A stretch of DNA of 64,000 nt, taken from positions 930,001 to 994,000 of the forward strand of contig NZ_CP087588.1 of the NCBI RefSeq assembly GCF_020985305.1, read 5' to 3'. This document shows positions 11,361-39,894 of the stretch, one piece after another. The translations under genes and the position numbers were made by a program. Positions within the stretch are counted from its first letter, which is position 1. Each line of letters begins with the position of its first letter. Source of the DNA: Croceicoccus sp. Ery15 (GTDB lineage Bacteria > Pseudomonadota > Alphaproteobacteria > Sphingomonadales > Sphingomonadaceae). Below the pieces are notes generated by a model. The model worked only from the letters and a program-made list of their open reading frames with translations, was not told the DNA's origin and did no database searches.

Positions 11361-11571
11361 TTCACTCCCCTAGCTGTGCCATGCATCTGACGCTTTGACC
11401 TGGCAGGTATCATGGATGGCGATAAAGCCTTGAAATTGAGGTCGCCTTCGAAACTACAATCGATTCCAAAGCCATTAGCCATCTTTGGAAATTAATTGCT
11501 CTTGATTGTAGCTTTCTGGCAATCTTAATATTAGATTTGCTTTGTTCAATACGGCATCTCGGGGAAACGCA

Positions 11572-12633: not shown

Positions 12634-12660
12634 GTTTCGGTCAAGCTACAGATGATTTGG

Positions 12661-12686
12661 GGGGTGGAGCGATCCACCCCTTTTTT
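12661..12686 (+). terminator. Rho-independent terminator of the OmpA-like gene
   Basis: A perfect 8-bp stem GGGGTGGA / TCCACCCC with loop GCGA is followed directly by six T residues, 28 bp after the stop codon of the OmpA-like gene. This is the cleanest intrinsic terminator in the window. Confidence 0.9.
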
Positions 12687-12762
12687 CTGCGCGAAAGACT
12701 GCTGTGGCACGCAGCCAAGCAATGCGAAGTTTACGCACACCAATCTGTAAAGGCTTGAAAAA

Positions 12763-12808
12763 TGGTGGACGCACTAGGGCTCGAACCTAGGACCCGCTGA
12801 TTAAGAGT
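12763..12808 (-). repeat. Left attachment site (attL): displaced tRNA-Lys 3' end, 46-bp direct repeat
   Basis: The sequence is identical over 46 bp to 39688-39733. It contains CCA, the T-arm and part of the anticodon arm of tRNA-Lys on the minus strand, then diverges (TTGAAA instead of CAGCTG). There is no 5' half, so it cannot form a tRNA. Confidence 0.93.
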
Positions 12809-12985: not shown

Positions 12986-13007
12986 ATTGGATCGGGCAGG
13001 CAGTCCG

Positions 13008-19678: not shown

Positions 19679-19691
19679 AGGTCTGCCTCCC

Positions 19692-20075
19692 TCAATATTC
19701 GCTGGCCAGCATTATCGTGAGCACCCGCCGCGTAACGGCAGGATTGGCCGGCTCCTCACTGCCGAACTGCAAATCGCGGTCGTATGCATCGATCTTCCAG
19801 AACACGGTTTCGGCAGACCGCGTGGGTCGCGTCGTCGTCCAGCGACCTTCGCCATCCCGATAGATCGCCCCGAAATCGCGCTCGCCATAAGGATCATTGT
19901 CCGGCGTGAAGGCGTCGAAGGTTTCGACCAGCTCGCGCACACGCGACTGATCTTGCTCGGGCAAGGCCCGGAACCCCTCGGTTGCCACGGCAACGCAGGC
20001 CAGGCCCATCGCCTGCCGGGCCCTATCATTGAGCCGGGCAATCCGGTCGCTGCGGGAGAGGGTGTCAGCACTCAT
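19692..20075 (-). CDS. DUF3768 domain protein
   Basis: A 127-residue protein starting MSADTLSRSDRIARLNDRAR. The pattern DNDPYGERDFGAIYRDGEGRW followed by VFWKIDAYDRDLQFGSEEPA is characteristic of DUF3768, a family common on plasmids and integrative elements of Alphaproteobacteria. Function is unknown. GGAGGG lies upstream of the ATG at 20075, which overlaps the preceding stop by 4 bp (ATGA). Confidence 0.82.
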   Translation of the reverse strand: MSADTLSRSDRIARLNDRARQAMGLACVAVATEGFRALPEQDQSRVRELVETFDAFTPDNDPYGERDFGAIYRDGEGRWTTTRPTRSAETVFWKIDAYDRDLQFGSEEPANPAVTRRVLTIMLASEY

Positions 20076-20260
20076 TGCACTGCCCTCCCGCCGCATTCGC
20101 AGATGTGAACCAGCTCGCCGAAATCTTCCCGCTCGCCCAGTTCCTCGGCAAGCCGCCGCACTGTCCCGAACGGCAAGCCGTTCTCGTTTGCCAGCATCCG
20201 CAACCAGTCCTCGCGGCATTCGGCCCCGCAAGCCCGGTAGTTCAAGATTTGATCGTCCAT
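20072..20260 (-). CDS. Small protein, partner of the DUF3768 gene
   Basis: A 62-residue protein starting MDDQILNYRACGAECREDWL and ending ICECGGRAVQ. Four cysteines in two groups could bind a metal. The central NENGLPFGTVRRLAEELGEREDF looks helical. The gene overlaps the DUF3768 start by 4 bp, so the pair is co-translated. No family name is assigned. Confidence 0.6.
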   Translation of the reverse strand: MDDQILNYRACGAECREDWLRMLANENGLPFGTVRRLAEELGEREDFGELVHICECGGRAVQ

Positions 20261-20780
20261 CTGCCTAACTCCTTCCGGAAAAGCCGCATCCGACACGCGG
20301 CATGCGGCCTGCCTTCCGGCGAGGATGGGAGGGGGAGGGAAAACCGGAATCGATGCCCTGGCGCGGGCCAGCGGGCAAAGCCCGCCACACGGGGGTGTCT
20401 ATTTCCGGTTTCGGGAACGAGAGGGCAAAGCCTTTGGTGTTCCCGCCAGGGATCGCCCAGCGATCCAGAGAAAATCGGCACCCTTGCAACGGCGCGAAGC
20501 CGACGGAGGTCCTGCGCGCGCGATCAGTGCGCCAGCGGGCCTCCGGCAATGAGAGAGGCAAGAGTGCCTGCGGGTTAGCTCAGGAATACCGCGCCCTCAG
20601 GAAGCGCGAAGCGCGGGACAGAGCGCGTCCACCAGAAATTCCCGCTCTGCTTCGAACTGCTCCTGATCGTCACCCAGATGGGATGAAACCGCCACGCGGG
20701 TTCAGTCGAGCGCAGCGAGGTAGAGCAGGTTGCCCGAAGGGTAGCACAATTCTCATCGCATGAATTCCACGCCGTCTAAT
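20261..20780. other. 520-bp GC-rich block without a convincing gene
   Basis: A plus-strand open frame (20302-20763) is Arg/Gly/Pro-rich without domain-like patterning, and I do not accept it. The block contains the perfect hairpin GCGGGC-AAA-GCCCGC (20371-20385) and further partly repeated GC-rich words (GCGAAGCGCG near 20600). It sits between two minus-strand operons, so it should contain the promoter of the DUF3768 operon; an origin or transfer-related site cannot be excluded. Confidence 0.45.
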
Positions 20781-21833
20781 TCATTCCACCGAACGCAAGA
20801 CAGGTGATTGTCTCAATGGAGGCGAAATCGAACCGACCAAGCCAAATAGCAGGCTCTCAAGCTCACTGTCCGGAAGTAGAAGTTCCTTGGCAATATGCGA
20901 ACGGGACAATCCATCTTTCCAAAGGTCTGTGAGCACCATTTGCCAAACCACTGATCTTTCCGGGGCAATCCCGTCTGGCTCCGACGACCGATAGAGTCGA
21001 TTGACCTGAATATACTGCCATTCCGTCATTAGACCGAGTTTGTTGAGCCGGTAGGCGAGGGCGACTGCGGCCACACCCCAGCGCTTCTTCGCACTGACGA
21101 TCTGCTCAACGCTGGAAACATACGGAATAGTGGACAGGAGGTCTGCCTGCGGCATCAGAAAAGCAGAAGCAAAGTTGTTAGCTTCCGCCTCCGCTTCACG
21201 GCCTTGGGGCGCGCCGTGACGGTGCAGAACGAGGTGACCTAATTCATGCGCGGCATCGAAACGGCTTCGCTCGCTCGACTTGTAAGTGTTCAGAAAGACG
21301 AATGGCTCGTTGCCACGCCAGCATGAAAACGCATCGACATTCTTGGTATCCTCCGCAAGAGAAAATACGCGAACGCCCTTAGTTTCCAGCAGTTTGATCA
21401 TATGGGCAACCGGCTTTTCACCCATAGCCCAATGTTGTCGCAGCATGCGCGCCGCAGAGGCTGGACTGCGCTCGTGCCCCAGGTCGAGGATATCCGGTTC
21501 TGGAAGCGTGAAATGCGAATGAACCCAATCCATGACCTCGAATGCCAAAGAGCCAGCCGCCAATGCAGCATCGCGCTCGCGAGCTGTCATGCCGGTCAGA
21601 CTGCGAAAGCTGGCAGCTGACTTATCGATTGGATCGAAATCATCCTGCTCGAAAAATTCACGGGGGTAGCCGAGTGCCGCCACAAGAGCGACAACCGTCG
21701 CTTCATCCGGCACTTGTTGCCTGTTGACGATGCGAGAATACGTCACGGGCGCGATGCCCGCACGTTCGGCGAGCACCTTCGCAGTGTACCGGCGCCGCTT
21801 GCGGGCCAGTTCGAGCCGTTCTATATTGAACAT
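20781..21833 (-). CDS. XRE helix-turn-helix / ImmA-IrrE zinc peptidase protein
   Basis: A 350-residue two-domain protein. Residues 5-60 form an XRE-type helix-turn-helix (LARKRRRYTAKVLAERAGIA), and the second domain is an M78 peptidase with the zinc motif HELGH (196-200) and downstream EAEANNFASAFLMP, which supplies the third ligand. Such proteins both bind DNA and cleave repressors; ImmA of ICEBs1 is the known example. The start MFNIERLELA at 21833 is 2 bp after the previous stop. It ends the seven-gene minus-strand run and is a candidate regulator or damage sensor for it. Confidence 0.85.
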   Translation of the reverse strand: MFNIERLELARKRRRYTAKVLAERAGIAPVTYSRIVNRQQVPDEATVVALVAALGYPREFFEQDDFDPIDKSAASFRSLTGMTARERDAALAAGSLAFEVMDWVHSHFTLPEPDILDLGHERSPASAARMLRQHWAMGEKPVAHMIKLLETKGVRVFSLAEDTKNVDAFSCWRGNEPFVFLNTYKSSERSRFDAAHELGHLVLHRHGAPQGREAEAEANNFASAFLMPQADLLSTIPYVSSVEQIVSAKKRWGVAAVALAYRLNKLGLMTEWQYIQVNRLYRSSEPDGIAPERSVVWQMVLTDLWKDGLSRSHIAKELLLPDSELESLLFGLVGSISPPLRQSPVLRSVE

Positions 21834-21835
21834 AA

Positions 21836-22483
21836 CTACCGTTTGCGAATGACGACAGGCTCGAAATCCACAGCATCGGAATCGTCGTGGGTTCCAAGCC
21901 GAATGCGTTCCCACTCGCCCTTCTTCACGATGAAAATTCGCTCGATAAAACCCTTGAAATTGCCGCCGGAGACGCCGGAGGCCAGCGAAAGCTCGGCACG
22001 AACGTCATCGCCGTTGACCGAGACACAGAAGAACCACATTCCCGTATTGATCGGCCCCGCTTTCGGCGTGGCCGAGCGGTCCAGTTCTTCCTTTCTGAAA
22101 AGGGAAAGCTGCGCTTCTTCAATCGCACGTTCCGCGCCAGCGCCCTTACCAGAAATGGCCAGAGGCGAGTGATCAACGGAAGCTGCAAGATCGACGCTCT
22201 GATAGCTGATGGTCAGGCGGCGTTCGGGATGGCGCACCAGTTCGATGTTGTCTTTGCGATCCAGATGCCAGCCGCGCGTGCGAAACAGGGCGCGGACATT
22301 GCGGGTTCCGTGGATATATGCGAACTGGCCCGCTGCCGTGAGAGGATCATTCTCGACCGCGTCGGCACGTGCACCCACCACTTCCTTGACGATTTGAATC
22401 AATTGGTCGCGGGTCACACCAAAGGTTTCGCTGAGGCGGCCATCAACCGACCATTCCTCGTCAAAGATACGCGCAACGTCCAT
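21836..22483 (-). CDS. Protein of unknown function, paired with the XRE-ImmA gene
   Basis: A 215-residue soluble protein. ATG at 22483 is chosen since GAGGG lies 6 nt upstream; a GTG at 22513 is an alternative. Residues 1-50 look helical (EWSVDGRLSETFGVTRDQLI), the rest is mixed, with an EEAQLSLFRKEELDR helix and WFFCVSVNGDDVRAELSLASG strands. I recognise no family. It is 2 bp before the XRE-ImmA gene, which indicates joint function, for example as protease substrate or inhibitor; that is inference only. Confidence 0.6.
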   Translation of the reverse strand: MDVARIFDEEWSVDGRLSETFGVTRDQLIQIVKEVVGARADAVENDPLTAAGQFAYIHGTRNVRALFRTRGWHLDRKDNIELVRHPERRLTISYQSVDLAASVDHSPLAISGKGAGAERAIEEAQLSLFRKEELDRSATPKAGPINTGMWFFCVSVNGDDVRAELSLASGVSGGNFKGFIERIFIVKKGEWERIRLGTHDDSDAVDFEPVVIRKR

Positions 22484-22567
22484 GATTCGACCCTCGATAA
22501 GATTTTCGACCACAAACGTGGCAGAAAAAATTATCGCCGTCTAGTCCCGCGTTGTCCAACTCGATTA

Positions 22568-24319
22568 TTATTCCTGCTCAATCGTAAGCACCCCTTGGAT
22601 GCGAGTTCGTAGGCGCTCGCGGCGCTCCGAATGAAATTGTTCAAAGCCTTCGAGCGCTTCGGGCACATCGCCAAGATCGTGGATGGCGCAATAGTGCGCT
22701 CGGTCACCAGCGTTTGGATAGTGATCCGCGAGCCATTCGCCGGGCAACTTGTCGCGCTTCTCTGTATTCGCTGTGCCTTCGAGCAATTGTAGATTTGGCA
22801 GCTCGTTTGCCATTCGGGAGAGATTCTCGATCCTGTCTTCGTCAATGCCTGCTTTGCGGAGCTTGGCGGCCGTGAACCGCGAAATGGGAAATACGTGGTC
22901 CATGTGGAACTGGTTTCGCAAATCGACGAACGGAAACAGCATTGAGAGCAGTGCGAACATGCGTTTGTCGCCATACTGCATCGTGAGCATGTCTTCGACT
23001 TCCGCAGGCGAGAATGCGAGCGACTTTCCACGTGCATCCATGACTTGTTCGAGTTCCCGCGCGGGGAAGGACGTTTCACCCTTCTGCTGAATCACTTCGC
23101 GCAATGCGGTGAGGAACGTATCAAGGCCGCTGCCCCAGATTCCCGATGCTTTCAGCAACGAGCGGGTCAGCCAGGAATGAATGACATTCCGGTCGGCGGC
23201 GAACTGGTTGCTGACGGCATAGTTCGCTGGGGCTCTACGGTGATAAAGGTAGTAGGCGATAGGCAGCAGGGCGCTGTCTGCACGAAGTGTCTGGCCGTTG
23301 AGGCCGAAGCTCGCCGCCAATTCCACAGTCCGGACCAAGGCAGCACGAATTTGCGGCCAGTTGCCTTCCAGCTTCTCCATGTTGGCTTGCGTGAAGTTCT
23401 CGACCTTGAAACCGACACTTGCGATGTCAGACAGCATCAGGCCGGCCTTCAATACAAAGTCCTGGCTCAGCGAAAAGCCAGTGCCAATTCTGTTGATCTC
23501 ATCGACAAGGCTGTGGATTTCAGATCGGGCATCCACCTTCTTCCACTGCGCAACTGCGATACTGAGCAGCAGGTCGGAATAGGAAAGCACTGTGCCACCG
23601 GAATTGAGGCGAATGAAGATGTTGAGCACCCGCTCAACGTCTTGGCTTTCTTCCTCATAGTAGAAGACCCTCTGGTCCACGTGGACAACCTGATGCAGCC
23701 GATCAAGGATTGTGTAGGCGCTATTGAGTGCATCGCCTTCGAGCTTTTTGGCAACCAGCCATGCAAGCATCGGCGGGCCGCCTTTCATCCCGAGAATCTC
23801 GGTCACGGGAAACCACAAGGCGGCTTCATCGCGCTCGACCTGTGCGTCATCGAGGAAACGGAAATCGTAAACCGCTCCTTCTTCGTCGGGTTCTAACGGA
23901 GCCAAGAGATTGAGGCGCAATGTCCTTTTCGGAAATGCGTCAGGGTTGGTCCACCATTTGCTCGGCAGCTTCATCGCCATCGAACCGCGCAGACCAATGT
24001 TTAGCGCGGTCAGCCGCTGCTGCCCGTCCAGAACGGCGGTGACCGTCTGGTCATGCAATGTCGGCAGTTCCGGGCAATGGGCGGCATCACGCTGATGGTA
24101 GTTCAGCACGAAGTCGTAGAATTTGAAGCTGCCGCTTGTCTCAGGCTTCACAGTCCAGAACAGAAAGGTGCCGAAAGGGTAGCCTTGCATAAGGCTGTCA
24201 AACAGACGCTCGATCTGCTCGGGCTTCCACACGAATTCGCGTTGGATCGCCGGAAGCACGTAGGATTTCTGCTGGATCTTCTCCAGCGCTGCAGCAATCG
24301 TTCCCCCGGGCTTGTACAT
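22568..24319 (-). CDS. DUF262 / HNH nuclease protein (GmrSD-like)
   Basis: A 583-residue protein. The N-terminal DUF262 ParB-like NTPase region has PAIQREFVWKPEQIERLFDS (residues 23-42) and DGQQR (98-102). The C-terminal part carries an HNH/DUF1524-type nuclease: HMDHVFPIS (472-480) and NLQLLEGTANTEK (509-521). This domain pair is that of GmrSD/BrxU-type enzymes that cut modified phage DNA using nucleotide hydrolysis. The gene is 55 bp after the helicase gene and 84 bp before the next gene on the same strand. Whether it acts alone as a type IV enzyme or as part of the neighbouring methylase/helicase system cannot be told from sequence. Confidence 0.88.
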   Translation of the reverse strand: MYKPGGTIAAALEKIQQKSYVLPAIQREFVWKPEQIERLFDSLMQGYPFGTFLFWTVKPETSGSFKFYDFVLNYHQRDAAHCPELPTLHDQTVTAVLDGQQRLTALNIGLRGSMAMKLPSKWWTNPDAFPKRTLRLNLLAPLEPDEEGAVYDFRFLDDAQVERDEAALWFPVTEILGMKGGPPMLAWLVAKKLEGDALNSAYTILDRLHQVVHVDQRVFYYEEESQDVERVLNIFIRLNSGGTVLSYSDLLLSIAVAQWKKVDARSEIHSLVDEINRIGTGFSLSQDFVLKAGLMLSDIASVGFKVENFTQANMEKLEGNWPQIRAALVRTVELAASFGLNGQTLRADSALLPIAYYLYHRRAPANYAVSNQFAADRNVIHSWLTRSLLKASGIWGSGLDTFLTALREVIQQKGETSFPARELEQVMDARGKSLAFSPAEVEDMLTMQYGDKRMFALLSMLFPFVDLRNQFHMDHVFPISRFTAAKLRKAGIDEDRIENLSRMANELPNLQLLEGTANTEKRDKLPGEWLADHYPNAGDRAHYCAIHDLGDVPEALEGFEQFHSERRERLRTRIQGVLTIEQE

Positions 24320-24374
24320 TCATTTCCCCCAATACTCGCCGGACGTTGCATCCTGCGCTCCCAGCCATTTCCGA

Positions 24375-26933
24375 CTAAGAATCAAATTCCTTCGCAACCA
24401 CAGTGTCATACAGGCCATAATGCGTCAGCCCTTCGTGGCTCTCGATGCCGGTATAGCGAAGCGACGCATCCTCGTAGCGGCGGAACGCGAACACCGCTTC
24501 GTTCATCCGCTCGGTGTTGAAGACGCGAAGGCGAACCAGCAGGTGGAAATCCGCTACAGTCAGGCCGGTGACTGCATGAAACAGGTCCGGTTCCAACTTG
24601 GTAATCACGTCCTGTAGCTTGTTCTCGCGGAAATCTGTGAGATACATGAAGGCCGGGATGCGGGTGGCGAACTTTATCAGCTTTTCCTGAACCAGCTTGC
24701 GCTTGGATTTGAATTCCTTTTCCTCGGCGGTCAGTTCTTTCTTCTCTTTCGGGGTCAGTTCCCCGTCATTGGCTTTGGCCTTGTCCTTGATGTCCTTGAT
24801 TTTCTCGCTCTTGTTGATGATCGTCTCGATGATGTTGTCGCCCAAGGCGCGCCAACCTTCGATCCGCTCAACAGCGGCCATCGCTTCGGGGTTTTCGAGA
24901 ACGCGGCGCAACGTGTCGTTGTCCACGTTCACCAGCATGGCCGATTCCCATTTGCGGGCTAGCAGGGTCGCGGACGTTCCCGCCATCGCAATGTCAAGGA
25001 TGCCGCCCGCGTCGATCTGCATCATCTTCGCGCCGTCATAGGCGAGCACGGGCAGGAACGAGACAAGCTCCTTCACCGCGTTTTCCGGGTTCGCTTCTCC
25101 CGGCGAAAGCCCGATGCCGTATTCCGACAATTGCCGCAGCGCCCTAGTCGGGGCGAAATCGAACACGAAACAGACCGGCTTGATGATCTCTTCCTCGTTC
25201 GGATTGTCCCCGTTGGGATTCTTGATCGACCAGGGCGACTGCACCCGAAACGCCGCCTGAAAATACGTCTCCGGCGATTGAAGATTGCGCAGCATCAGGA
25301 TCGATGACCATTGCTTGACCGTAACCCCGGTGGTCAGCTTGCCGCAGGAAAGCGTGATGGTCTTGGTGTCGAACCCGCTGCCAACTTTGTCCCGAACCGG
25401 CGGCAAGGCATCGAGGCCTATGCCCGCAGATGCGCCTGCCGCCACGATCACCTGATAATCGTGCCAGAACGTATTGTGCTTCTCTTCCAGCAAATTCGCC
25501 ATCGCGTGGCAGGCCGCGACATTGGGCAGAAACCAGAAGCTGTGCTGCAAGTGAGGCAGAAGCCGCGTGTCCGAATAGGGCCACGGCGGGACAACGCCGG
25601 TTTTGATACTGTCGAATGATCGCGGTGCATCGGGCGAGTTACGAATGACGTTGAGCCATTTCTGCACCTCGTCCTTGTGCTTGAACTGCGCAAGAACGCC
25701 CGTGCCGTTCGCCGCGAAAAACTCATTGAGGTCAAATTCGTCCAGCTCGCCGCCACTGGCGATATGGGTAATCTCCGGCGGCATCTGGTAGGTCAGCAAG
25801 TGCATTTGCGGCAACGCGCCGTAGGGATTGCGCTGCCCCGGATGCTGCGCAGCAAATTCTTCCTTGGCTCGCTGCTCGTCGGTGTAGGTCCAGTTGAATA
25901 TCTGTTCCTCAATGAACTCGCCCGTAGCCAGCGCCTTGAAAGGGGTGCCGGAAAGGTAGAGGTAAGCCCGCGTGGTGATCGGCAAAAAATCGGTTTCGCT
26001 TTCCGACATGACGCCAAGGTCTTCGTTCACATCGTCAAGACCATTGGCATACTCGGTCTTGGCTGCTTCCTTGGCAATCGAAGCATCCTCGCCCTCGAAA
26101 AGCTCCTTGGCCGTCTCGCGCCATGCGCCGAAATGATATTCGTCCAACACGACCAAATCCCAGTTGATCGTGTGGAGCCATTCGTTGCGGGCTTTGATAT
26201 TCCCGGCTTTGTCGCGCCCCAGCAGGTCTTGGAACGAGCCGAAATAGACCACCGGCTTGTCACCATCGATCTGGCTCGGATCACGCCCGGAATTGCGGGA
26301 GAGATACTGCCACCCGTCAAAATCGACATGGGATTCAAGGTCAGTCTGCCACGCATCTTCGACGGCAGGCTTGAAGGTCAGCACCAGCACCCGTTTCGCC
26401 CCAAGTTTCTTGGCAAGCTGATAGCTGGTGAAGGTCTTGCCGAAACGCATCTTGGCGTTCCACAGGAAGCGGGGAACGGCATTGGCATCCTGCTGCCAGC
26501 GCGAATGGTAATAGGCGTAAGTTTGCTCGACCGCTTCCAACTGCTCCTTGCGCGGCGGAAAATCCTCGTGATGCGTGCCGGTGAATTGTTGTCCGCTGCG
26601 CAGTTCGGTCAGCACGGTTTTCACATCGGCCAGCGAACATCGCATCCATTCAAGCTGCGGATTGGCAAAGCCCTTGCGCCTGAGCGCATCGCGCACGGCA
26701 TGATCGGTGATGATTGACCCGTCATCGGCCTCGCCGGGTTCGTCGAGTTCGATGGTGTAATTGGCAATCGCCGCCGTCTTTAACTGCTCGGCCACGCGCT
26801 GCTTTACATCGCGCGTGGTCTGTCCAACCTTGAGCAGCCCGTCATGCGCCTCATCCGCGATGGAGTAGGCATAGATGCGCGGGCGCACATCGGGTTTCGG
26901 AGTAAGGATTTCCTCGATTGAAGGCCTATTCAT
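24375..26933 (-). CDS. GIY-YIG nuclease / DEAD-like helicase fusion, restriction subunit
   Basis: An 852-residue fusion. Residues 19-50 contain a GIY-YIG/T5orf172-like core (RIYAYSI, LLKVGQTTRDVKQR). A superfamily 2 helicase follows, with Walker A-like KMRFGKTF (161-168), DEYH (264-267), SGTPF (328-332) and a late QAAFRVQSPW motif VI. A Lys/Glu-rich helical segment (KIKDIKDKAKANDGELTPKE) lies near residue 720. It is probably the translocating nuclease of a restriction-type system, with the methylase genes next to it supplying specificity. The start overlaps the upstream methylase stop by 8 bp. The catalytic Glu of GIY-YIG is not identified with certainty. Confidence 0.85.
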   Translation of the reverse strand: MNRPSIEEILTPKPDVRPRIYAYSIADEAHDGLLKVGQTTRDVKQRVAEQLKTAAIANYTIELDEPGEADDGSIITDHAVRDALRRKGFANPQLEWMRCSLADVKTVLTELRSGQQFTGTHHEDFPPRKEQLEAVEQTYAYYHSRWQQDANAVPRFLWNAKMRFGKTFTSYQLAKKLGAKRVLVLTFKPAVEDAWQTDLESHVDFDGWQYLSRNSGRDPSQIDGDKPVVYFGSFQDLLGRDKAGNIKARNEWLHTINWDLVVLDEYHFGAWRETAKELFEGEDASIAKEAAKTEYANGLDDVNEDLGVMSESETDFLPITTRAYLYLSGTPFKALATGEFIEEQIFNWTYTDEQRAKEEFAAQHPGQRNPYGALPQMHLLTYQMPPEITHIASGGELDEFDLNEFFAANGTGVLAQFKHKDEVQKWLNVIRNSPDAPRSFDSIKTGVVPPWPYSDTRLLPHLQHSFWFLPNVAACHAMANLLEEKHNTFWHDYQVIVAAGASAGIGLDALPPVRDKVGSGFDTKTITLSCGKLTTGVTVKQWSSILMLRNLQSPETYFQAAFRVQSPWSIKNPNGDNPNEEEIIKPVCFVFDFAPTRALRQLSEYGIGLSPGEANPENAVKELVSFLPVLAYDGAKMMQIDAGGILDIAMAGTSATLLARKWESAMLVNVDNDTLRRVLENPEAMAAVERIEGWRALGDNIIETIINKSEKIKDIKDKAKANDGELTPKEKKELTAEEKEFKSKRKLVQEKLIKFATRIPAFMYLTDFRENKLQDVITKLEPDLFHAVTGLTVADFHLLVRLRVFNTERMNEAVFAFRRYEDASLRYTGIESHEGLTHYGLYDTVVAKEFDS

Positions 26934-28506
26934 CAGCAGCCGCCATCGGACGGATCATGCTTTCGATATAGGCAATCTCATCCTGATCTATGCCATATTT
27001 CTCATACAGCATTTCGTCAGTCCATGCTCGATCCCAAGCCTGTAGCGGCACCCAAGAATATGTTGATCGCAATGCGTGCTGTGTGATCTTCCGAAGCGAG
27101 ACCAGAAATCGGAATAGCCGGGTGCAATAGTAGCTCTTGAAGTTTTGGGCCTCAAACTCGGATTCAAATGGGCCAGCCACCAAATACGTCTGCGTGCACA
27201 CAGAGTTGGGAACAGCCACGATAGGCGGGCCAAGCACCATTGCGGGAATTGCTCCGCGTTCGCCGTATGCTTCCGGAAGCAATACTTTCCAACCAGCTAT
27301 TAGTTGGCGGTTCTTCCTGATGAGGTCGTCATCTACCCAGCCTTGAGTTCGCCGCCCTTTCACTGTCAGGTAAATCGACAGTGCGCCGCCTGTCTCGGAC
27401 ATTGAATAGTCTGCAAAATTCGTCGCAAGCCCGAATGGGGTGTCGCCGCTCACAATCGTTTCAAGGGTGCTCTCATCTTTGGATAGCACCTTATTCAAGA
27501 TTGCCAGTGCTCGCGTATCGCGGACAAAAATATCGTGTTCGTCTAACTTACGTTCGACGGTGGGAAGTTGCTCGTCCCCTTGAAACAATGTGTAACGACA
27601 GGGGCCGGAATTTTCTCGATTCCAAAGAAAATAGCCAACACCACCCTCAAAATCGACACCGGGGAAGGCCGTGCTCATCTTCGTATAATCAACTAGTTCG
27701 CGAACATGGCCATCAGTGAACATACGCTGCCTAAAGGCACCCATATCCCTACCACCAGCAAGCCAGCGGGATGGAATAACCATGACAAGAAATCGAGGTT
27801 CCAAGTCCATCGCCTGCTCGGCGAACAGTTGATAGATCGACGAGTCATTCGATCCGCCCCCGCCACCCTTCAATTGATATGGTGGATTTCCAATGATTAC
27901 ATCGAACTGCATATCGGCTCCGAACAACTCGCCGAGGCGAGCCTTGATGTCGTTGGTATGGATGAAGGCATAGGCGTGGTTCTCTAACTCCGGCCCTCGG
28001 TCAAAGATCGCACGGGGGGCACCACAAAACTCGCATTTGTCATTCTTCCACGAATGCTCGGTGCGCTCGAACCAGATATTGCCATCGTCTTTGGTAAATG
28101 CCGTGGCGACGGAATGCCCCCCGGTCGCGTGCTTGGAGCAATAGAGGCTGCGGCGCGCGAGCAGGCTGGTCAGCCGGGTGATGCCGATACCGAAGACCTG
28201 CTGCGTCAGGATATGGTCAACGCGGGTCTGCAAATCCGGGATTTCCGTTTCAAGGCCAGCGATCAGCCGCTTGGCGATCTCCCGCAGAAAGACACCGGAT
28301 TTCGTGAATGGGTCCAGAAACCTGACCGAACTGTCCGCCCAGATGCTCGCGCCACCATTGTCCGCCGCCCATGCCTCTGCCAGCGTATCCAGCATCCGGT
28401 TGGCGAACTCCGGCGGCGTGAACACCTCGTCGTTTGACAGGTTGGCTATGCAGGTCAGCACATCGGGGTTACGCCCGCGTAGCGCAAAGCTGGCCTGTTC
28501 AATCAT
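26926..28506 (-). CDS. Eco57I-like N6-adenine DNA methylase, large subunit
   Basis: A 526-residue protein with FTPPEFANRML (29-39), a motif I region written DPFTKSGVF (65-73) instead of the usual DPxxGSGxF, a Cys pair CEFCG (158-162), and the catalytic motif IV NPPY (207-210). A target-recognition-like C-terminal half follows. It belongs with Eco57I-type methylases of restriction systems. It lies between the small methylase and the helicase with overlaps of 4 and 8 bp, so the three form one translational unit. The altered SAM-binding motif suggests that SAM binding may depend on the small partner; this is inference. GC content falls through its middle. Confidence 0.85.
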   Translation of the reverse strand: MIEQASFALRGRNPDVLTCIANLSNDEVFTPPEFANRMLDTLAEAWAADNGGASIWADSSVRFLDPFTKSGVFLREIAKRLIAGLETEIPDLQTRVDHILTQQVFGIGITRLTSLLARRSLYCSKHATGGHSVATAFTKDDGNIWFERTEHSWKNDKCEFCGAPRAIFDRGPELENHAYAFIHTNDIKARLGELFGADMQFDVIIGNPPYQLKGGGGGSNDSSIYQLFAEQAMDLEPRFLVMVIPSRWLAGGRDMGAFRQRMFTDGHVRELVDYTKMSTAFPGVDFEGGVGYFLWNRENSGPCRYTLFQGDEQLPTVERKLDEHDIFVRDTRALAILNKVLSKDESTLETIVSGDTPFGLATNFADYSMSETGGALSIYLTVKGRRTQGWVDDDLIRKNRQLIAGWKVLLPEAYGERGAIPAMVLGPPIVAVPNSVCTQTYLVAGPFESEFEAQNFKSYYCTRLFRFLVSLRKITQHALRSTYSWVPLQAWDRAWTDEMLYEKYGIDQDEIAYIESMIRPMAAADE

Positions 28507-29153
28507 GCGCTTGCCCCCGTTCCGTCATTTGCCGCCGCGAGATCGCGCACGCTCATGGGCGGATATGTCTGCGAAGGCGTGAATATCTCGTGCTTACCCA
28601 GTGTCGAAAACAAGGAGTCTTCGGCGCTGAAACTCGCCATGCCGGTCAGCACATCAAGCCGGAAATCACGGCGCTGGAATTTTCCTTTGCCCAGATAGCC
28701 CCATTCGACCACGCGGATCGGCGCGTCATCAATAGCGCGCATCGTCATCGCATCGCCGTGAACGAGATTGAGCGAAAGGACGTGAGAGGCGGCACGGTAG
28801 AGATCGTCGTTCGCATCCAGCGCCAGATAGTCCGCGAATACCTCAAGCATATTGGCGCGGCATTCCGCGATATTGTCGGCCAGTAACTCGATGCCGTAGC
28901 AGCACATCAGGCCCAGCAGCGCATGATGCCGCTTCTCGAAGTCCGACTTGCCGAATTTCAATTCCACGGCGGCCAGCTTGCGTTGCAGGATCGGCACGAG
29001 GAAATTGCCGCTGCCGCAGGCGGGTTCAAGAAAACGGGAATCAATCCGCTCCGTTTCACCCTTCACAAGGTCGAGCATCTTTTCGACCAGCCAGGGCGGT
29101 GTGAACACCTCCCCGTGATCGGCGACACGCTGCTTGGATTTAATGAGGCTCAC
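28503..29153 (-). CDS. N6-adenine DNA methylase, small subunit with SAM-binding motif but no NPPY
   Basis: A 216-residue protein. With GTG at 29153 as start (AGGA just upstream) it begins MSLIKSKQRVADHGEVFTPP, a typical opening of short N6-methylases beside Eco57I-like genes. A TTG at 29195, overlapping the preceding gene, is the alternative. Motif I is canonical (FLEPACGSGNFL), followed by YGIELLADNIAECRANML, but there is no NPPY catalytic motif. It ends FTPSQTYPPMSVRDLAA. It overlaps the next gene by 4 bp (ATGA). Motif content complements the large subunit. Confidence 0.82.
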   Translation of the reverse strand: MSLIKSKQRVADHGEVFTPPWLVEKMLDLVKGETERIDSRFLEPACGSGNFLVPILQRKLAAVELKFGKSDFEKRHHALLGLMCCYGIELLADNIAECRANMLEVFADYLALDANDDLYRAASHVLSLNLVHGDAMTMRAIDDAPIRVVEWGYLGKGKFQRRDFRLDVLTGMASFSAEDSLFSTLGKHEIFTPSQTYPPMSVRDLAAANDGTGASA

Positions 29154-29172
29154 GAGTTCCTGCTCACAAGGA

Positions 29173-31179
29173 TTAGCGACCGAGATGCTTTTCAAGTGCG
29201 GCGTTGATGGCCCTAAACAGACGTTCAAATTGACCTTCGCTTCCCGCTGGCAGCACTGATGCCGGGTCCGTCGCCATTTTCTGCAAGAATAGCTTTGAAG
29301 GACGCGTCTTGTGGAAATCGATAGAAAGCGCGTCGAATGCAGCTTCAAACCGGCGGGCTATGCGAGGAATGTGGGCATTCAGTTCCAACTTCTTGCCTTT
29401 AAGTTCCTTCGCGTAGGCCTCTCGAACAAGGGCTTCGTAAATTGCCGGGTCCAATATATCTTCAATGTCGGCTTCGGCGGGTGGCGTTTCGAACGCTTCG
29501 CTTGCGAAAATGACATTGTCCGACCGTATCAGCTTGCCTTTGACCAAATCGTCGCGCGTGGCCTTTGCGTCCTTTTCATCGTCGAACAGGACAAGCACCT
29601 TCAATTGCTCCGACGTTAGCAACGCCACCATGTAATGCACTTTCTGCGCGCCCCCGGCGGGCGTGATGGTTAGGCGTTCATCAAGACCAACTTTGCCTTG
29701 GTCGTTCAGATGCGCCGATACCGCCGACAACACCCAAAAATCCGTCACGCCTTCGACGACCAAGTTGTTCGGGCCTACAAACAGACTTTGCGCTAGGTCG
29801 TAACCTAATGCGGCCTGCAACGGAAACAGGGTTCTGGCGTCGCCTGTCGGGTCGTTCGATACGGTCGTGCCAGCTTCTTCGGCTATGTTGACCGTGCGAA
29901 CCCAATCCAATTGATGAGTCGGCACCATGAAGGGGGAGTGCGTCGTATAGACGATTTGGTTGGCAAAGTCGTCTTCAAGGTGACGCAATAAGTCGCCTTG
30001 CGAACGCGCGTGGAGATACAAGCCGGGTTCGTCCAACAGCAAAATCGCACCTTCGGCCTCGCCATCGTCGGTATCCGCTGCGAAGACGATATAAAACGCG
30101 AAGAACCATTGGAAGCCACGGCTTCGTTCATCAAGGTTCACTTCAACGTCATAGGTGCTGTTCGGGTCGGAAATCAGCGTGTCGAAGTGTTGTGCGTCAA
30201 GGTTGAAGCGAACCTTCAATTCTCGGTCTTTCCAACGCTTGCGAATAGCGGTCGTTACAACGGCACCGGCACGATTGGCCAGCTGCCCACGTGTCTCTTG
30301 GTCGTTTTGTTGAAGTAGCTCTTGGAGTTGGTCGGGACTTAATCCGGCGACTTTGCAAAGCTTTTCAAAGTTGGTGTCCGCTTGGGTCGGAGTGCCTTGA
30401 CTCTTGCGCTGCAGGAACTGCGCAATGTCTTGATGACCCTTAATTTCGGGATAGTCTTCAAGATACATGAACACTGGCAGGCGTTCGATAACCCACTTTC
30501 GTGCCGCCTTATGTGCTTCCTCATTTTGCGGTATTGCTTCGGCCATTTCCTCAAGCGCAACGACCTTTTGGTCTTGCGCATCGGTCAACTCGGTGTCCGC
30601 TGCTGCGAGTGCTTGTCGAAGTGCGGCTAAGGCGGGCGTTGCGGTTTCAGCCCATTTGGCCCCAGTCTGTCCGACGCCAATTGCGCTCACAAACGTGTCC
30701 GCCGCCTTTTCCAATTCGGCCTTCGTGTCGTCGGCCAACTTCGCCGCTTTGGCTTTAACGGCAGCGTCGATCTTGCGTGCTTCGGATTTAACGGCAGCTA
30801 GGTCAAATTCCGTTGTCGAGCCTGCGATTCCCACGGTTCGGGTTTCATCGTAGCGACGGCATACGTCAACTTCGGTCACACCATCGGCTGCGGGCCAAAT
30901 TTCTGCAATTCGCTGCTGTTCATACTTGGTGAGTTGCCAAGTGGAATCGACTACTGGCGTCCAATCGCGACATTCCGACAGTTTGCGATGGCGAGGAAAG
31001 TCCTTAATCGGGCTAAGTGCTTCAAATCCATCCGCCGGATTCAAACTGTGTAGCGCCCGAAGGATGTTAGACTTTCCGCTCTCATTGCGCCCCAACAGTG
31101 CAGTGATGCGCGAAACATCAATTTCGCCACTATCATTGATTGAACGAAAGTTTCTAACGCGAAATGACTTGAGTTCCAT
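29173..31179 (-). CDS. OLD-family ATPase/TOPRIM nuclease-like protein
   Basis: A 668-residue protein. An SMC/OLD-type ATPase opens with MELKSFRVRNFRSINDSGEI and Walker A GRNESGKS (29-36); after a long helical middle come Walker B AILLLDEPGLYLH and the H-loop YTTHSPFMV. The C-terminal third has a TOPRIM pattern: LVVEGVTDFWVL (acidic Glu) and LVLFDDEKD (Asp pair). OLD proteins such as GajA cut DNA and take part in phage defence. It has its own strong ribosome site (AAAGGGGGTG) 58 bp after the relaxase stop, and leads into the methylase-helicase genes. No UvrD-like GajB partner is adjacent. Confidence 0.85.
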   Translation of the reverse strand: MELKSFRVRNFRSINDSGEIDVSRITALLGRNESGKSNILRALHSLNPADGFEALSPIKDFPRHRKLSECRDWTPVVDSTWQLTKYEQQRIAEIWPAADGVTEVDVCRRYDETRTVGIAGSTTEFDLAAVKSEARKIDAAVKAKAAKLADDTKAELEKAADTFVSAIGVGQTGAKWAETATPALAALRQALAAADTELTDAQDQKVVALEEMAEAIPQNEEAHKAARKWVIERLPVFMYLEDYPEIKGHQDIAQFLQRKSQGTPTQADTNFEKLCKVAGLSPDQLQELLQQNDQETRGQLANRAGAVVTTAIRKRWKDRELKVRFNLDAQHFDTLISDPNSTYDVEVNLDERSRGFQWFFAFYIVFAADTDDGEAEGAILLLDEPGLYLHARSQGDLLRHLEDDFANQIVYTTHSPFMVPTHQLDWVRTVNIAEEAGTTVSNDPTGDARTLFPLQAALGYDLAQSLFVGPNNLVVEGVTDFWVLSAVSAHLNDQGKVGLDERLTITPAGGAQKVHYMVALLTSEQLKVLVLFDDEKDAKATRDDLVKGKLIRSDNVIFASEAFETPPAEADIEDILDPAIYEALVREAYAKELKGKKLELNAHIPRIARRFEAAFDALSIDFHKTRPSKLFLQKMATDPASVLPAGSEGQFERLFRAINAALEKHLGR

Positions 31180-31237
31180 TCGGCACCCCCTTTGACGCTC
31201 ACGCTAGCGCGTTCGATGAATGTTCTCAATAGATTGC

Positions 31238-33988
31238 TCACCCCAATCCGGCACTGGTCGACTTCCCTGCGGATAACGAGGGTAAGGCCGCCTGCTCGCT
31301 GGCTGTTTGCTCCAATCCCGCCCGTTCGCTGATCGCTGAAACCAGCTTTTCCCGGTCGTTGGTGTAGATTGCCACCGATTCCTTCGCCCGCGAAAGGCTG
31401 ACATAGAACGACTTCTGATCGACCAGATTGGTCGCCTTGCTGTCGGCGTGGATCATGACACGATCTGCTGTGCGGCCCTGGGCGGCGAAGGCGGTTTCGA
31501 CGTAGGCGTGTCGGATGTGCTGATCGCGGGTATTTTCCAGATTCAGGGTTTCGGTCTGGCCGCGCGGATTGCGGATGGTGGCGGTGCGGGATTGCTGGTC
31601 GATGGCTGACACGGTGCCGCGCCCGCCGTTGATCCGTCCAAGCTCGCGGTCGTTGCGGGTGAACTGGATGCGGTCACCTGCTTTCAATTCGAGCGGCTGC
31701 GGCGAGAACGCCTGAACCTTGCTCGCGCCCCATTGCCGCAAGCGCCAGTCTATATCGCGGCCATCCTCTGCCTTGAGGGTGATTGCGGCTTTGGCCGGGT
31801 CGATTTGCTCGACGCGATAGGTTTGAGCGCGTGCTACGCCTTTGTCGGCATAGTCGCGCGTGAAGCGCACCAAGTCGCCGCGTTCATAGCTCGCGGGGTC
31901 GCGCGCCTCGGCACGGGACAGGCCCTTGTTGACCAGACTTTGCATCGTGATCGCGGGGCCTGTCAGCGCTCCGACCTTTGCCAACTCAGTCCGGATTTCT
32001 GCGGTGAGGGCATCGCGCCCTTCGCGCGAGGGCTCGATGACCAGTGTTCTCGCTCGCGCCTTTTCGTTGAGGGACGCGTAGGCTCTGGCGATGGCGGCAA
32101 ACCGGTCTGTGCGCTCATTGTGCTCGAAGATGGTGCCGCCGCCGCGATCAAGCGCGGCCAAGGCCTTGCGGGCATCGCCTTCGATGGAGGCCTGCACCGC
32201 GTCTTTCGTTGCGACATTGGTTTGGCGGACAATCTCATCAAGTTTGGCAGTTTGCATCCCTGCATCCTGCAGCTGCTTGAATGCGGCACCGGCATCGACC
32301 GATCCGAGCTGCTTCACATCGCCGACCAGCACGATCCGGGCATTGGCCTTTTCGCCAAGCTCAAGAAGCGAAGTCATGTCGCGGGCGGACAGCATCGAAG
32401 CCTCGTCCACGATCCATACGCCGCCACGGGTTTTGTCCGGGCTTCCTAGCAAGTGCTTGGCAACGGTTGCGCCGCGCATGCCCAAGGCATCGCTCAGCGT
32501 TCGCGCCGCCGATGCAGTTGGCGCGAGTGGTGTGACGGAGAGGCCCTTGGCCTTTGCCTCGGCGGCAAAGGTGGCAAGCACGGTGGTCGTCTTCGCCGTC
32601 CCGGCATAGCCTTGCACAGCGATCACGCGGTTAGTGCTGGTCAGCAGCGCCCGCGTCGCGTCGCGTTGGCCGCTATTCCAGCGATGGTCGGATCGCAGTT
32701 CTGCCTTCGCTACAGCGCTGCCCGCTTGCCGCAACGAATGGATCGGCCTGACGACACCGCGTCCGTCGACTTCAGCGCGCAGCATGCGGCGCTCGTTTTC
32801 GATGTTCGTCGCGGTTGTGAACCCGGCAAATTCCGCGCCGCGCTTGTCGAGATAGGATCGGGGCACCAACGCGCCATCTGCGCTGGCGCGCACAATCGCC
32901 TGGCCGATCTGGGTGGCGGTCACCTTGCCCATGCCATACCGCCCCGCCTCCTTCTCAAGATCGGCGGCGGAGAACACGGACTGACGTTCGCCGAGATTCT
33001 CGGCGGCAAGGGTGACGGCGCGTTGCGCGGCCAAATTGCCTTCAGCTTGGATGGCCAAGCCGTGATCCGTATTGGCGGCATTGGCTTCGGAATTTTTCAC
33101 CAACTGCTGGCGTTCCGCCTGCCCGAACCCGGCGTGATCAGCGGTTGCGCGCCATTCTCCGACAAGTTCTGCCCGGTTGGCGGCCTGCTTCGCCTCTCGT
33201 GTGTCGAGCGCGGCAATCTGCTTTTGCTCTGCCGATGCCGTTTCACGGGTCTGGCCGCGTTCCGCCAAACGCGCCTCGACCTGCGCCGCACGCTCGCTGA
33301 AAGCGCGGATGACATCTGGCGAAACACCCTTGATCTCGAACAGCGAATCCTTGCTGGTTTCAATTTCGTAGCCAAGCTCCCGCACCCCAACCGCCAGTTC
33401 CTGTCGGTAGATCGCACCGATAGCCTTCTGCAATTGGTAGAAGGCGCGCGGCTCAAGGCTGCGCCAGTTTCCATCCGCGTCACGCGTCATATTCATGATG
33501 ACATTGTGTGTGTGAAGCTGCGGGTCTTGCGCCCGGCTGGTGTCGTGCAGGAAGCTGGCGACGACAAGGTTGCCGGTCTGATGTCTCTCGACCTTGCCAT
33601 CCTCCCTGATACGGGTGGCGGAGGCGTGACGTTCGGCGAAAGCCAACGCCGCTTTCACAGCCCGGTCGTGCGCTCCTACCAATCGACGGTCGCCAGCCAC
33701 CTCTGCCATAATCGATACGGACTTGGGGGCGCTCATGGTCACATCCCAGCCGGGGCGATGTTCGAGCTTGCCGTCGCGGGTGGTGCCAAGCTGCTGGTCA
33801 TCGGGCAAGCGCCCGTCAAGCATGTCGCGGAAAGCGTCACGCTCGACCTCGCCGGCAAGACCAAGTTCTTTCGCACCTTCGCCCTGCCATTCGCTCGGCG
33901 AAAGTCCGCCATCGGCATAATAGTCATCGGCCTCGTAGTAGCTCGATGCCTGTGCCGATGAGCCGATTGCACTGATCGTGGCGACCAT
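31238..33988 (-). CDS. MobF-type conjugative relaxase/helicase (TraA/TrwC-like)
   Basis: A 916-residue relaxase. The start MVATISAIGSSAQASSYY gives the catalytic tyrosine pairs (Tyr17-Tyr18 and Tyr23-Tyr24). The metal-binding histidines are His148, His159 and His161 (FLHDTSRAQDPQLHTHN). A RecD-like helicase follows, with Walker A GYAGTAKT near residue 459, VWIVDEASML, and a final YVSLSRAKE motif. It nicks oriT, stays bound to the 5' end and unwinds the strand. ATG at 33988 overlaps the coupling-protein stop (TGATG). It is somewhat shorter than plasmid TraI/TrwC forms but carries both domains. Confidence 0.93.
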   Translation of the reverse strand: MVATISAIGSSAQASSYYEADDYYADGGLSPSEWQGEGAKELGLAGEVERDAFRDMLDGRLPDDQQLGTTRDGKLEHRPGWDVTMSAPKSVSIMAEVAGDRRLVGAHDRAVKAALAFAERHASATRIREDGKVERHQTGNLVVASFLHDTSRAQDPQLHTHNVIMNMTRDADGNWRSLEPRAFYQLQKAIGAIYRQELAVGVRELGYEIETSKDSLFEIKGVSPDVIRAFSERAAQVEARLAERGQTRETASAEQKQIAALDTREAKQAANRAELVGEWRATADHAGFGQAERQQLVKNSEANAANTDHGLAIQAEGNLAAQRAVTLAAENLGERQSVFSAADLEKEAGRYGMGKVTATQIGQAIVRASADGALVPRSYLDKRGAEFAGFTTATNIENERRMLRAEVDGRGVVRPIHSLRQAGSAVAKAELRSDHRWNSGQRDATRALLTSTNRVIAVQGYAGTAKTTTVLATFAAEAKAKGLSVTPLAPTASAARTLSDALGMRGATVAKHLLGSPDKTRGGVWIVDEASMLSARDMTSLLELGEKANARIVLVGDVKQLGSVDAGAAFKQLQDAGMQTAKLDEIVRQTNVATKDAVQASIEGDARKALAALDRGGGTIFEHNERTDRFAAIARAYASLNEKARARTLVIEPSREGRDALTAEIRTELAKVGALTGPAITMQSLVNKGLSRAEARDPASYERGDLVRFTRDYADKGVARAQTYRVEQIDPAKAAITLKAEDGRDIDWRLRQWGASKVQAFSPQPLELKAGDRIQFTRNDRELGRINGGRGTVSAIDQQSRTATIRNPRGQTETLNLENTRDQHIRHAYVETAFAAQGRTADRVMIHADSKATNLVDQKSFYVSLSRAKESVAIYTNDREKLVSAISERAGLEQTASEQAALPSLSAGKSTSAGLG

Positions 33989-35808
33989 CAGACCGGTCCA
34001 GCGGTCTTGATCGTCGCTTCGGCCTTCGCACCCTTGACCGGCAATTTGCCCCACAGCGAACGACTGACATCGACCGGAACGAACCCTCGATGCTCCGGTG
34101 CGCCGCGCGCGTCGATATGGTCACGCGTGAGCCTGATCTTTGCTACCGGAAGAGCATCGGGCAGTTGCAGGAAGCCCTGATGCGGTTCGAGCCGCATGTT
34201 GCTTTCGATCACGGCTGCGCGAACATGCCGGGTGCTGCCTACTGACGAACGGCCACTGTTCGGCCCATAGTCGAAGCTGTCGGATGCGCTGCGCACCTCC
34301 ACCTCGACATCGCCGATGTTGCGCGATGCCCACTCGCGTGTTTCGCGGTCTATGAGCTGGAGATAGAGCTTGGAATTGCAGCACCCCAGGATCGCCTCGG
34401 CGCTGTCACGGCCATAGCGTCGATGCATCTGGCCGATGGCCTGAAAAGTCAGCGTGACGCTTGCACCGAACTTGCGCCCTTCGGGCAAGAGGCGGGTGAG
34501 GTTGTCCACGCGCGGCAGGTCGGCCAATTCGTCAAGGAAGAACCACAGGCGGCGGTCGGACGATGGCTCCAGCCCCAGAGTGGCACTGGCCGCGCACTCC
34601 AGCCAGCAGGCCAGCAAGGGCTTCATCGCCTCGAAATAGTCCTCCTTGCGCGGCACGAAGATCCATGGCTTCGGTCCCTCATGCCGGTCAATCCCGGCGA
34701 AGTAATCACGGAACGAAAAGCTCTTTGCATCGCCGGGTTCGCGCCAGAGGAACTGCAAGAGATTGGATGCCTTGGCGAGCATGAACAGGACCGAACCGGT
34801 CGCCCGGTCGGCGTCATCTTCGAATGTGCGGGCTGACGATGTTCCGGCAAGCCACGCCTTCATTTCTTCCTTGGTCTTGGCCTGCAAGGCATTGAGCAGG
34901 TCGGGCAAGGTGGTCTTCCCCTCGGCGCTCAGGACGCGCAGCACATTGGCGACAAGGATACGACTAGTTTCCAGCCAGACATCGTCATCGCGTTCGCCGG
35001 TTTCGGAAACAAGCTGGCGGGCGATGCGGTCTGCATCGGCGGGGTGCGCAATCTCCAGGAACGGGGACCAATAGGCCGACCGGGCATCGAACGGATTAAG
35101 AATGATGTCGCCGCGTTCGGGCCGGTAATAATGGGCAACGAATTCGCCGCTGGTATCGTAAACGAGGGCGGGTTCGCCCCTTGCCTCGACCGCGTCGAGC
35201 ATCTGCCGGAGGACGGTCGTCTTGCCAGCACCGGTCGTTCCCAGAAAGGCGAAGTGACGGGTTTCGAGCCAAGCCGGAATACCGACCGTGGCGATGCGCA
35301 ATGAGTACTCGTCGGTCACGCGTTTGGTCAGGCTTCGCAGTTCCCGTTCGGACACGATTTCGGTTCCCGAAACGATGCGATCCTGAGCCGCCTTGCGACC
35401 CTTGTCGCGCATCCAAACCGCAAGTCCAAGGCACGCGATAAGCCCGAACAAACCACCCGCCAAACCGCCAAGGATTGCCCTGCTTTGGATGTCCTGCCAA
35501 CACGCAATCCACATTGGATCGTTGGCGAGGACACTCGCAGGTATGCGACCCGTTCTGCCATCGAAATTGACCGTGACTTCGGGGTCGGTTTTGCCGCCTG
35601 AAACGATGCTCACAAGGCTACCCTGGGCATGCTGATAGGCGCAGGTCAATTGCCATGGTTCGACCGTCTGCATGGGCAGGCCAAAGCCGCCAAGGATGGC
35701 AGCGCCGCCAACCGTCCAAGCGTATGCTTTCCAGCGTGTGGCGAAGCCCGATATGGCTTGCCGGAACAGGCCTTGTCCGCGCAGCAGATTGTCGTGATCG
35801 TGGCTCAT
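33988..35808 (-). CDS. VirD4/TrwB-like type IV coupling protein (TraD)
   Basis: A 606-residue DNA pump. Two membrane regions lie near residues 28-50 and 110-132 with a periplasmic loop between; the cytoplasmic ATPase has Walker A GTTGAGKTT (about 190-198) and Walker B LWFFLDELADL (about 416), the TrwB_AAD_bind pattern. It links the relaxosome to a type IV secretion channel. No channel genes are present in the element, so a helper channel would be needed. It overlaps both neighbours (ATGA with the small accessory gene, TGATG with the relaxase). Confidence 0.92.
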   Translation of the reverse strand: MSHDHDNLLRGQGLFRQAISGFATRWKAYAWTVGGAAILGGFGLPMQTVEPWQLTCAYQHAQGSLVSIVSGGKTDPEVTVNFDGRTGRIPASVLANDPMWIACWQDIQSRAILGGLAGGLFGLIACLGLAVWMRDKGRKAAQDRIVSGTEIVSERELRSLTKRVTDEYSLRIATVGIPAWLETRHFAFLGTTGAGKTTVLRQMLDAVEARGEPALVYDTSGEFVAHYYRPERGDIILNPFDARSAYWSPFLEIAHPADADRIARQLVSETGERDDDVWLETSRILVANVLRVLSAEGKTTLPDLLNALQAKTKEEMKAWLAGTSSARTFEDDADRATGSVLFMLAKASNLLQFLWREPGDAKSFSFRDYFAGIDRHEGPKPWIFVPRKEDYFEAMKPLLACWLECAASATLGLEPSSDRRLWFFLDELADLPRVDNLTRLLPEGRKFGASVTLTFQAIGQMHRRYGRDSAEAILGCCNSKLYLQLIDRETREWASRNIGDVEVEVRSASDSFDYGPNSGRSSVGSTRHVRAAVIESNMRLEPHQGFLQLPDALPVAKIRLTRDHIDARGAPEHRGFVPVDVSRSLWGKLPVKGAKAEATIKTAGPV

Positions 35809-39687: not shown

Positions 39688-39763
<76 letters not shown>

Positions 39764-39894
39764 ACATCGTCTGGTTTTCGACGATTGCGGCGTATTCCGA
39801 AAGGAGCGATTCGCCGCGGGAGGCCTCCCTATAAAGACTGCGCGCCGCGATGGAAGGGGAAATTTCGACTTTCCGAAAATTTCTTCACGAGGCC

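Follow-up and report, generated by a model that had tools for sequence, protein, structure and literature searches.

Seven minus-strand genes occupy positions 20781-31179 of the stretch of Croceicoccus sp. Ery15 DNA analysed here (64,000 nucleotides, hereafter the window), which corresponds to positions 930001-994000 of one 3.63-Mb contig (NZ_CP087588.1). All seven are intact, with uninterrupted reading frames. In transcription order they encode an OLD-family protein with an ATPase and a TOPRIM nuclease domain (668 amino acids (aa); 29173-31179), a small methyltransferase-like subunit, M1 (216 aa; 28503-29153), a gamma-type adenine methyltransferase with a recognition domain, M2 (526 aa; 26926-28506), a GIY-YIG helicase (852 aa; 24375-26933), a DUF262-HNH protein (583 aa; 22568-24319), the toxin RmrT (215 aa; 21836-22483) and the antitoxin RmrA (350 aa; 20781-21833). 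Three open reading frames (ORFs) had been drawn too long, and comparison with relatives placed the starts of M1, RmrT and RmrA at GTG 29153, ATG 22483 and ATG 21833, respectively. The corrected distances in transcription order are 19, -4, -8, 55, 84 and 2 bp. The run of minus-strand genes with overlaps or short gaps described in the original prediction was thus intact, except that the OLD/M1 and RmrT/RmrA overlaps disappeared with the start correction, leaving 19 bp and 2 bp. The real overlaps are those of M1 with M2 (4 bp) and of M2 with the helicase (8 bp), and spacers of 55 and 84 bp separate the helicase from DUF262 and DUF262 from RmrT. The best PADLOC or Pfam model scored 83 to 747 bits for six of the seven proteins and lowest, at 39.9 bits, for M1. 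Judged by its sequence, the gene run is not a chance product. Position 31179 is no natural boundary on the 5' side, as this strand also carries TraI, 58 bp further upstream, and TraD beyond it. We conclude with high confidence that the run is a defence island, in which four independently mobile anti-phage modules are stacked behind TraI in a probably mobilizable element in tRNA-Lys.

On family matches, the four modules are an OLD-family nuclease, a DrdVI-type restriction-modification (R-M) system made up of M1, M2 and the helicase (the trio), a BrxU-like enzyme and a RosmerTA pair. The family assignments made in the original prediction were upheld by Pfam and PADLOC. The OLD protein fuses an ABC-type ATPase (Pfam AAA_15, PF13175; 72.3 bits) to an OLD-like_TOPRIM domain (PF20469; 24.9 bits, cut-off 23.2), and its best PADLOC model is Old (83 bits). 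M1 gave weak methyltransferase matches and M2 matched Pfam Eco57I (112 bits). The helicase protein, a restriction endonuclease/translocase of DrdVI type, has an N-terminal GIY-YIG domain (Pfam T5orf172) and a superfamily 2 helicase (Pfam ResIII). The DUF262 protein matched PADLOC HEC-05 (747 bits) and, over residues 1-578, the structure 7p9k (678.8 bits), identifying it as a BrxU-like type IV restriction enzyme of the GmrSD family. The small gene that follows it was recognised as the RosmerTA toxin by the PADLOC RmrT model (134 bits). The last gene, with a helix-turn-helix (HTH) and an ImmA/M78 protease-like part (HELGH at 196), matched PADLOC RmrA (468 bits) and Pfam Peptidase_M78. This XRE-ImmA gene, which had been proposed as a control gene, is therefore the RosmerTA antitoxin and no controller of the whole run.

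The leading proposal for the run had been one undescribed composite system. In a system of this kind, OLD would be the effector, the methylase-helicase would act as the sensor, DUF262 would provide a second nuclease and XRE-ImmA would exert control. The arrangement of the seven genes on one strand with gaps of -8 to 84 bp favours such a unit. To examine how the parts are inherited, we collected loci carrying each of them. A genome scan with the helicase gave at least 581 stretches confirmed by tblastn, of which the best 80 were retrieved and combined with four plasmids to give 84 trio loci. M1, M2 and the helicase were all found in 66 of these, in identical order and strand in 66/66. Orthologues of OLD and of RmrT were each found at 0/84 trio loci, a DUF262 orthologue at one (L011, 24-25% identity) and RmrA, weakly, at two (L010 and L084). 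A class-wide search for OLD gave matches in 10 of the 385 genomes, its own among them, and apart from the window's own protein these relatives are distant (37% identity or less). Places fetched with flanks, of 7-8 kb where the contig permitted (several contigs end earlier), numbered 8 of 10 for OLD (all but the own genome and G199), 5 of 7 for DUF262 (all but the own genome and G199) and 4 of 7 for RmrT (all but the own genome, G077 and G300), with 4 of 74, 5 of 359 and 3 of 3 plasmid records, respectively. Within the DNA retrieved, the other modules were absent from the resulting 12 OLD, 10 DUF262 and 7 RmrT loci. RmrA adjoined RmrT in all seven RmrT loci. We also inspected the slots beside 17 of the 26 TraI places found besides the window's own (at least 53% identical; L131, L140 and L145 are incomplete). 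No M1, M2, helicase, OLD, RmrT or RmrA was found in the 17 slots, which come from the same taxonomic order as the window, and one slot had a DUF262 gene of 25% identity. Subunits of type I R-M systems, cytosine methylases and ArdC-like proteins were among the families listed (the first 25 of 360 for PADLOC and of 69 for Pfam) for the 69 of 111 slot ORFs scanned. By these comparisons, the four modules are inherited independently of one another.

Several observations weigh against this conclusion. Profile searches near the trio found OLD in 2/84, DUF262 in 5/84, RmrA in 6/84 and RmrT in 0/84 loci; the matches were mostly partial or distant, with substantial DUF262 matches at two loci, L002 and L011. 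Short contigs are common among the trio loci and also occur among the others, so that distant partner genes could be missed. The shared strand and short gaps, with OLD ending 19 bp before M1, make co-transcription of all seven genes likely, and some joint regulation is possible. Against the composite system, no second instance of it occurred among the 84 trio, 12 OLD, 10 DUF262, 7 RmrT and 17 relaxase-slot loci, each module matches a system described alone, and homology to related elements breaks at module edges, as set out below. We therefore regard a single composite as very improbable. The candidate undescribed seven-gene system is thus removed and replaced by a defence island that is well assembled but ordinary, its four modules all being of known kinds.

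To locate the module edges, we compared the window at the DNA level with related elements of Aurantiacibacter zhengii (L008) and of two members of the same genus as the window (L192 and L193). The trio aligned with all three, from 24365/24388 to 29155 except for the recognition domain of M2, as did the TraI side from 31287/31383, and 19680-20745 aligned with L008 and L192. In contrast, neither 20746-24364, which holds RosmerTA and the BrxU-like gene, nor 29156-31286, which holds OLD, aligned with any of the three, and the OLD, BrxU-like and RosmerTA genes were not found in these elements. Both the locus counts and the module edges thus reveal independent inheritance of the parts, the pattern that the original prediction had named as speaking against its lead reading. 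Its alternative of several stacked systems was right about the stacking, although the number is four rather than two or three. A match of the whole set to one named system was not found, whereas each part matches its own (OLD, DrdVI, BrxU, RosmerTA). L192 and L193 have in common a 7.4-kb block with the trio that is 98.3% identical, and their backbones encode TraI proteins sharing only 58% and 69% identity with that of the window. The trio, too, is thus able to pass from one backbone to another. Downstream of the helicase lies a variable slot, occupied by the BrxU-like gene and RosmerTA in the window and by IetAS genes in a Sphingopyxis plasmid. In L192 (6090-8714), a candidate defence ATPase, PDC-S06 (AAA_13), abuts the helicase in a block common to L193. 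The island is an example of layered immunity on a mobile element, with a common R-M core and two separate add-on blocks that end at gene edges.

The carrier is an integrated element of 26.9 kb (12763-39733). Its attL (12763-12808) perfectly repeats, over 46 bp, the 3' half of tRNA-Lys(CTT). Its attR (39688-39733) is this 3' half within the tRNA-Lys gene itself, which is intact (39688-39763, minus strand). A plus-strand tyrosine integrase gene (12987-14309; Pfam Arm-DNA-bind_3 and Phage_integrase) lies just within the left att copy. In the congener L196, the left flank (11000-12808) and the right flank (39688-41010) aligned to adjacent DNA, in which the 46 bp are present once, inside an intact tRNA-Lys gene. 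Contiguous flanks were seen in this one of five congener regions fetched; in the other four, the alignment of the left flank was confined to its tRNA end. Together, the att repeats and the empty site in L196 indicate that the seven genes are cargo of the 26.9-kb element. The cargo slot is bordered by the minus-strand gene of the MobF relaxase/helicase TraI (31238-34054; Pfam TrwC 323 bits, NCBIfam MobF 313 bits), followed by that of the coupling protein TraD (33988-35808, minus strand; Pfam TrwB_AAD_bind 404 bits). This relaxase and coupling protein suggest that the element is probably mobilizable; no other transfer genes turned up among the element proteins scanned, which represent part of its ORFs.

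M1, M2 and the helicase are matched gene for gene by pDrdVI of Deinococcus wulumuqiensis. DrdVI comprises three adjacent genes, M1, M2 and a GIY-YIG/translocase, in the same order and strand as in the window, and full-length homology amounts to 77% identity for M1, 52% for M2 and 74-75% for the helicase-nuclease (L007). In contrast, residues 301-400 of M2, in the recognition part, are only 26% identical. This suggests that the window operon probably has a target site other than that of DrdVI. M1-2.DrdVI has been cloned and assigned GCAGCC with N6-methyladenine (6mA) as a type IIG system (PMC6430315). M1-M2.MaeIV of Methanococcus, termed a 'split methylase' and cloned as a pair, is said to be similar to DrdVI (PMC10113651). 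We aligned M1 and M2 across the trio loci, retaining M1 rows of at least 190 and M2 rows of at least 480 aligned residues. M1 retains an S-adenosylmethionine (AdoMet) motif I loop, ACGxG, and lacks NPPY or any [DNS]PP[YFW] in 65/65 rows. M2 retains NPPYQ in 71/71 rows and has K-S-G in place of the G-x-G of motif I, likewise in 71/71. The fold of M2 resembles CamA, M.BseCI and M.TaqI. The division of motifs between M1 and M2 was not found described in the literature searched.

Alternatively, M1 and M2 could each be a complete methyltransferase that acts independently on its own DNA strand. The absence of [DNS]PP[YFW] from M1 argues against this, as do the cloning of M1-M2.MaeIV as a pair under the name of split methylase and the site of DrdVI: GGCTGC, the strand opposite GCAGCC, lacks adenine, although the activity is assigned to both genes as M1-2.DrdVI. 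We therefore consider two independent enzymes unlikely. The alternative, one methyltransferase built from two proteins, may also bear on specificity. The M2 recognition-domain part (27115-27618, minus strand; approximately residues 297-464) is a gap in DNA homology to L192/L193 within surrounding DNA that is 87-91% identical, and protein identity drops there too. The recognition domain thus varies sharply among otherwise near-identical operons. M1 and the translocase-nuclease hardly change between operons, whereas the recognition domain of M2 is exchanged; a single swap of that domain would therefore give modification and restriction a new specificity at the same time. In type I systems, HsdS sets the specificity of modification and restriction together, so that a swap has a comparable effect; the DrdVI type differs in having a GIY-YIG nuclease on its motor. 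We tentatively suggest, at a little below an even chance, that the DrdVI family makes one methyltransferase from two proteins with partial motifs each and is respecified by a single M2 domain swap. M1-M2 is the part of the run of greatest interest. The trio is widespread, as the 80 retrieved loci bear labels from many phyla and at least 581 stretches were confirmed.

The M2 alignment also revealed C123, H151 and C161 in 71/71 rows and C158 in 70/71, between motif I and NPPY; these four residues possibly form a zinc site. The spacing in the 66 trio operons exceeds 300 bp between M1 and M2 in 11 and between M2 and the helicase in 8, with ORFs in between (loci with wide spacing include L018, L022, L032, L042, L050, L053 and L064). 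Some of the inserted ORFs we take, by eye, to be like DUF1016, Fic or RhuM, and the trio operon seems to accept passenger genes.

The structure matched by the DUF262 protein, 7P9K, is that of BrxU, a type IV enzyme described in PMC8565348 as cutting DNA with 5-methylcytosine, 5-hydroxymethylcytosine or glucosylated 5-hydroxymethylcytosine in an ATP-dependent manner. In addition to the full-length match, BrxU of the pEFER BREX island (PDB 7P9K/7P9M) has RLFDS, DGQQR and DHxxP in common with the window enzyme, in which the nucleotide motifs are RLFDS38 and DGQQR98 and the C-terminal HNH motif is DHVFP474 (motif names as in PMC8565348). The two differ in that BrxU has DHIYP and lies within a BREX operon, whereas the window enzyme has DHVFP and the trio and RosmerTA as neighbours. 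The PADLOC matches listed for the seven proteins of the run and for three neighbours upstream of it (for OLD, the best 25 of 108) included no BREX model. The pairing of R-M and a BrxU-like enzyme echoes the BREX and BrxU island of PMC8565348, and we considered whether the BrxU-like enzyme is functionally paired with the DrdVI-type system, covering cytosine-modified phages as BrxU does with BREX on pEFER. A 'belt and braces' arrangement of BREX and BrxU appears in the same source, a relative 53% identical to the window enzyme (L171) is flanked by brxC and pglX within a BREX operon on the Escherichia coli plasmid p1658/97, another adjoins BREX-3 genes on a Roseomonas plasmid, and L002 and L011 have other DUF262 proteins near the trio. 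On the other side, those two are the only substantial DUF262 matches among the 84 trio loci, three other annotated plasmids carry a BrxU-like gene with no R-M or BREX gene in the flanks shown, and complementation requires neither physical nor evolutionary coupling. Functional pairing thus appears rather doubtful.

The four modules would act as layers rather than as one machine. By analogy with their families, M1 and M2 would jointly place 6mA at a single short site, and DNA lacking this mark would be cut by the GIY-YIG helicase as it translocates. The BrxU-like enzyme would cut cytosine-modified phage DNA, which the DrdVI-type system may not cut. OLD and RosmerTA are expected to act later in infection than these two: the OLD-family ATPase/TOPRIM nuclease would attack DNA during infection, and RmrA would restrain RmrT until infection releases the toxin, leading to cell shutdown.

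The sole solved relative of the OLD protein by sequence was 6p74, a distantly related OLD-family member (37.7 bits) that likewise combines an N-terminal ATPase and a C-terminal TOPRIM domain in one protein. No partner gene was found for OLD, whose neighbours are TraI and M1, and the annotated relatives L005, L165 and L167 have no adjoining helicase. Gabija was rejected: the best GajA model scored 54.8 bits against 83.3 bits for Old, there was no GajB beside OLD, and the only GajB-model matches were weak (~21 and 16 bits) and lay in TraI, a MobF relaxase.

RosmerTA is described in PMC10440598 as a family of toxin-antitoxin pairs directed against phages, in which the antitoxin is an ImmA-like protease. 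The window pair has the same organisation, a toxin adjoining an HTH-M78 antitoxin, and both proteins match PADLOC models. The toxin of phage Kita depolarises membranes according to the same paper, whereas the window RmrT has no Pfam match. A promoter-like site, TGGACA-17-GATAAT (22530-22558, minus strand; 10/12 match), lies just upstream of RmrT and may give RosmerTA its own transcript; the site is weak, because three such sites were found against 4.2 expected by chance. On a Paracoccus plasmid (L173), a RosmerTA pair immediately precedes a gene that bears the annotation of a type ISP restriction/modification enzyme, and RosmerTA beside R-M may be recurrent.

A second TraI, 58% identical to that of the element, is encoded on the same chromosome (C1:2473819-2476581; L141). 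OLD, the trio and RosmerTA were not found around it within the 19.8 kb fetched. Beyond the element described here, the chromosome thus holds one or more further related elements or remnants.

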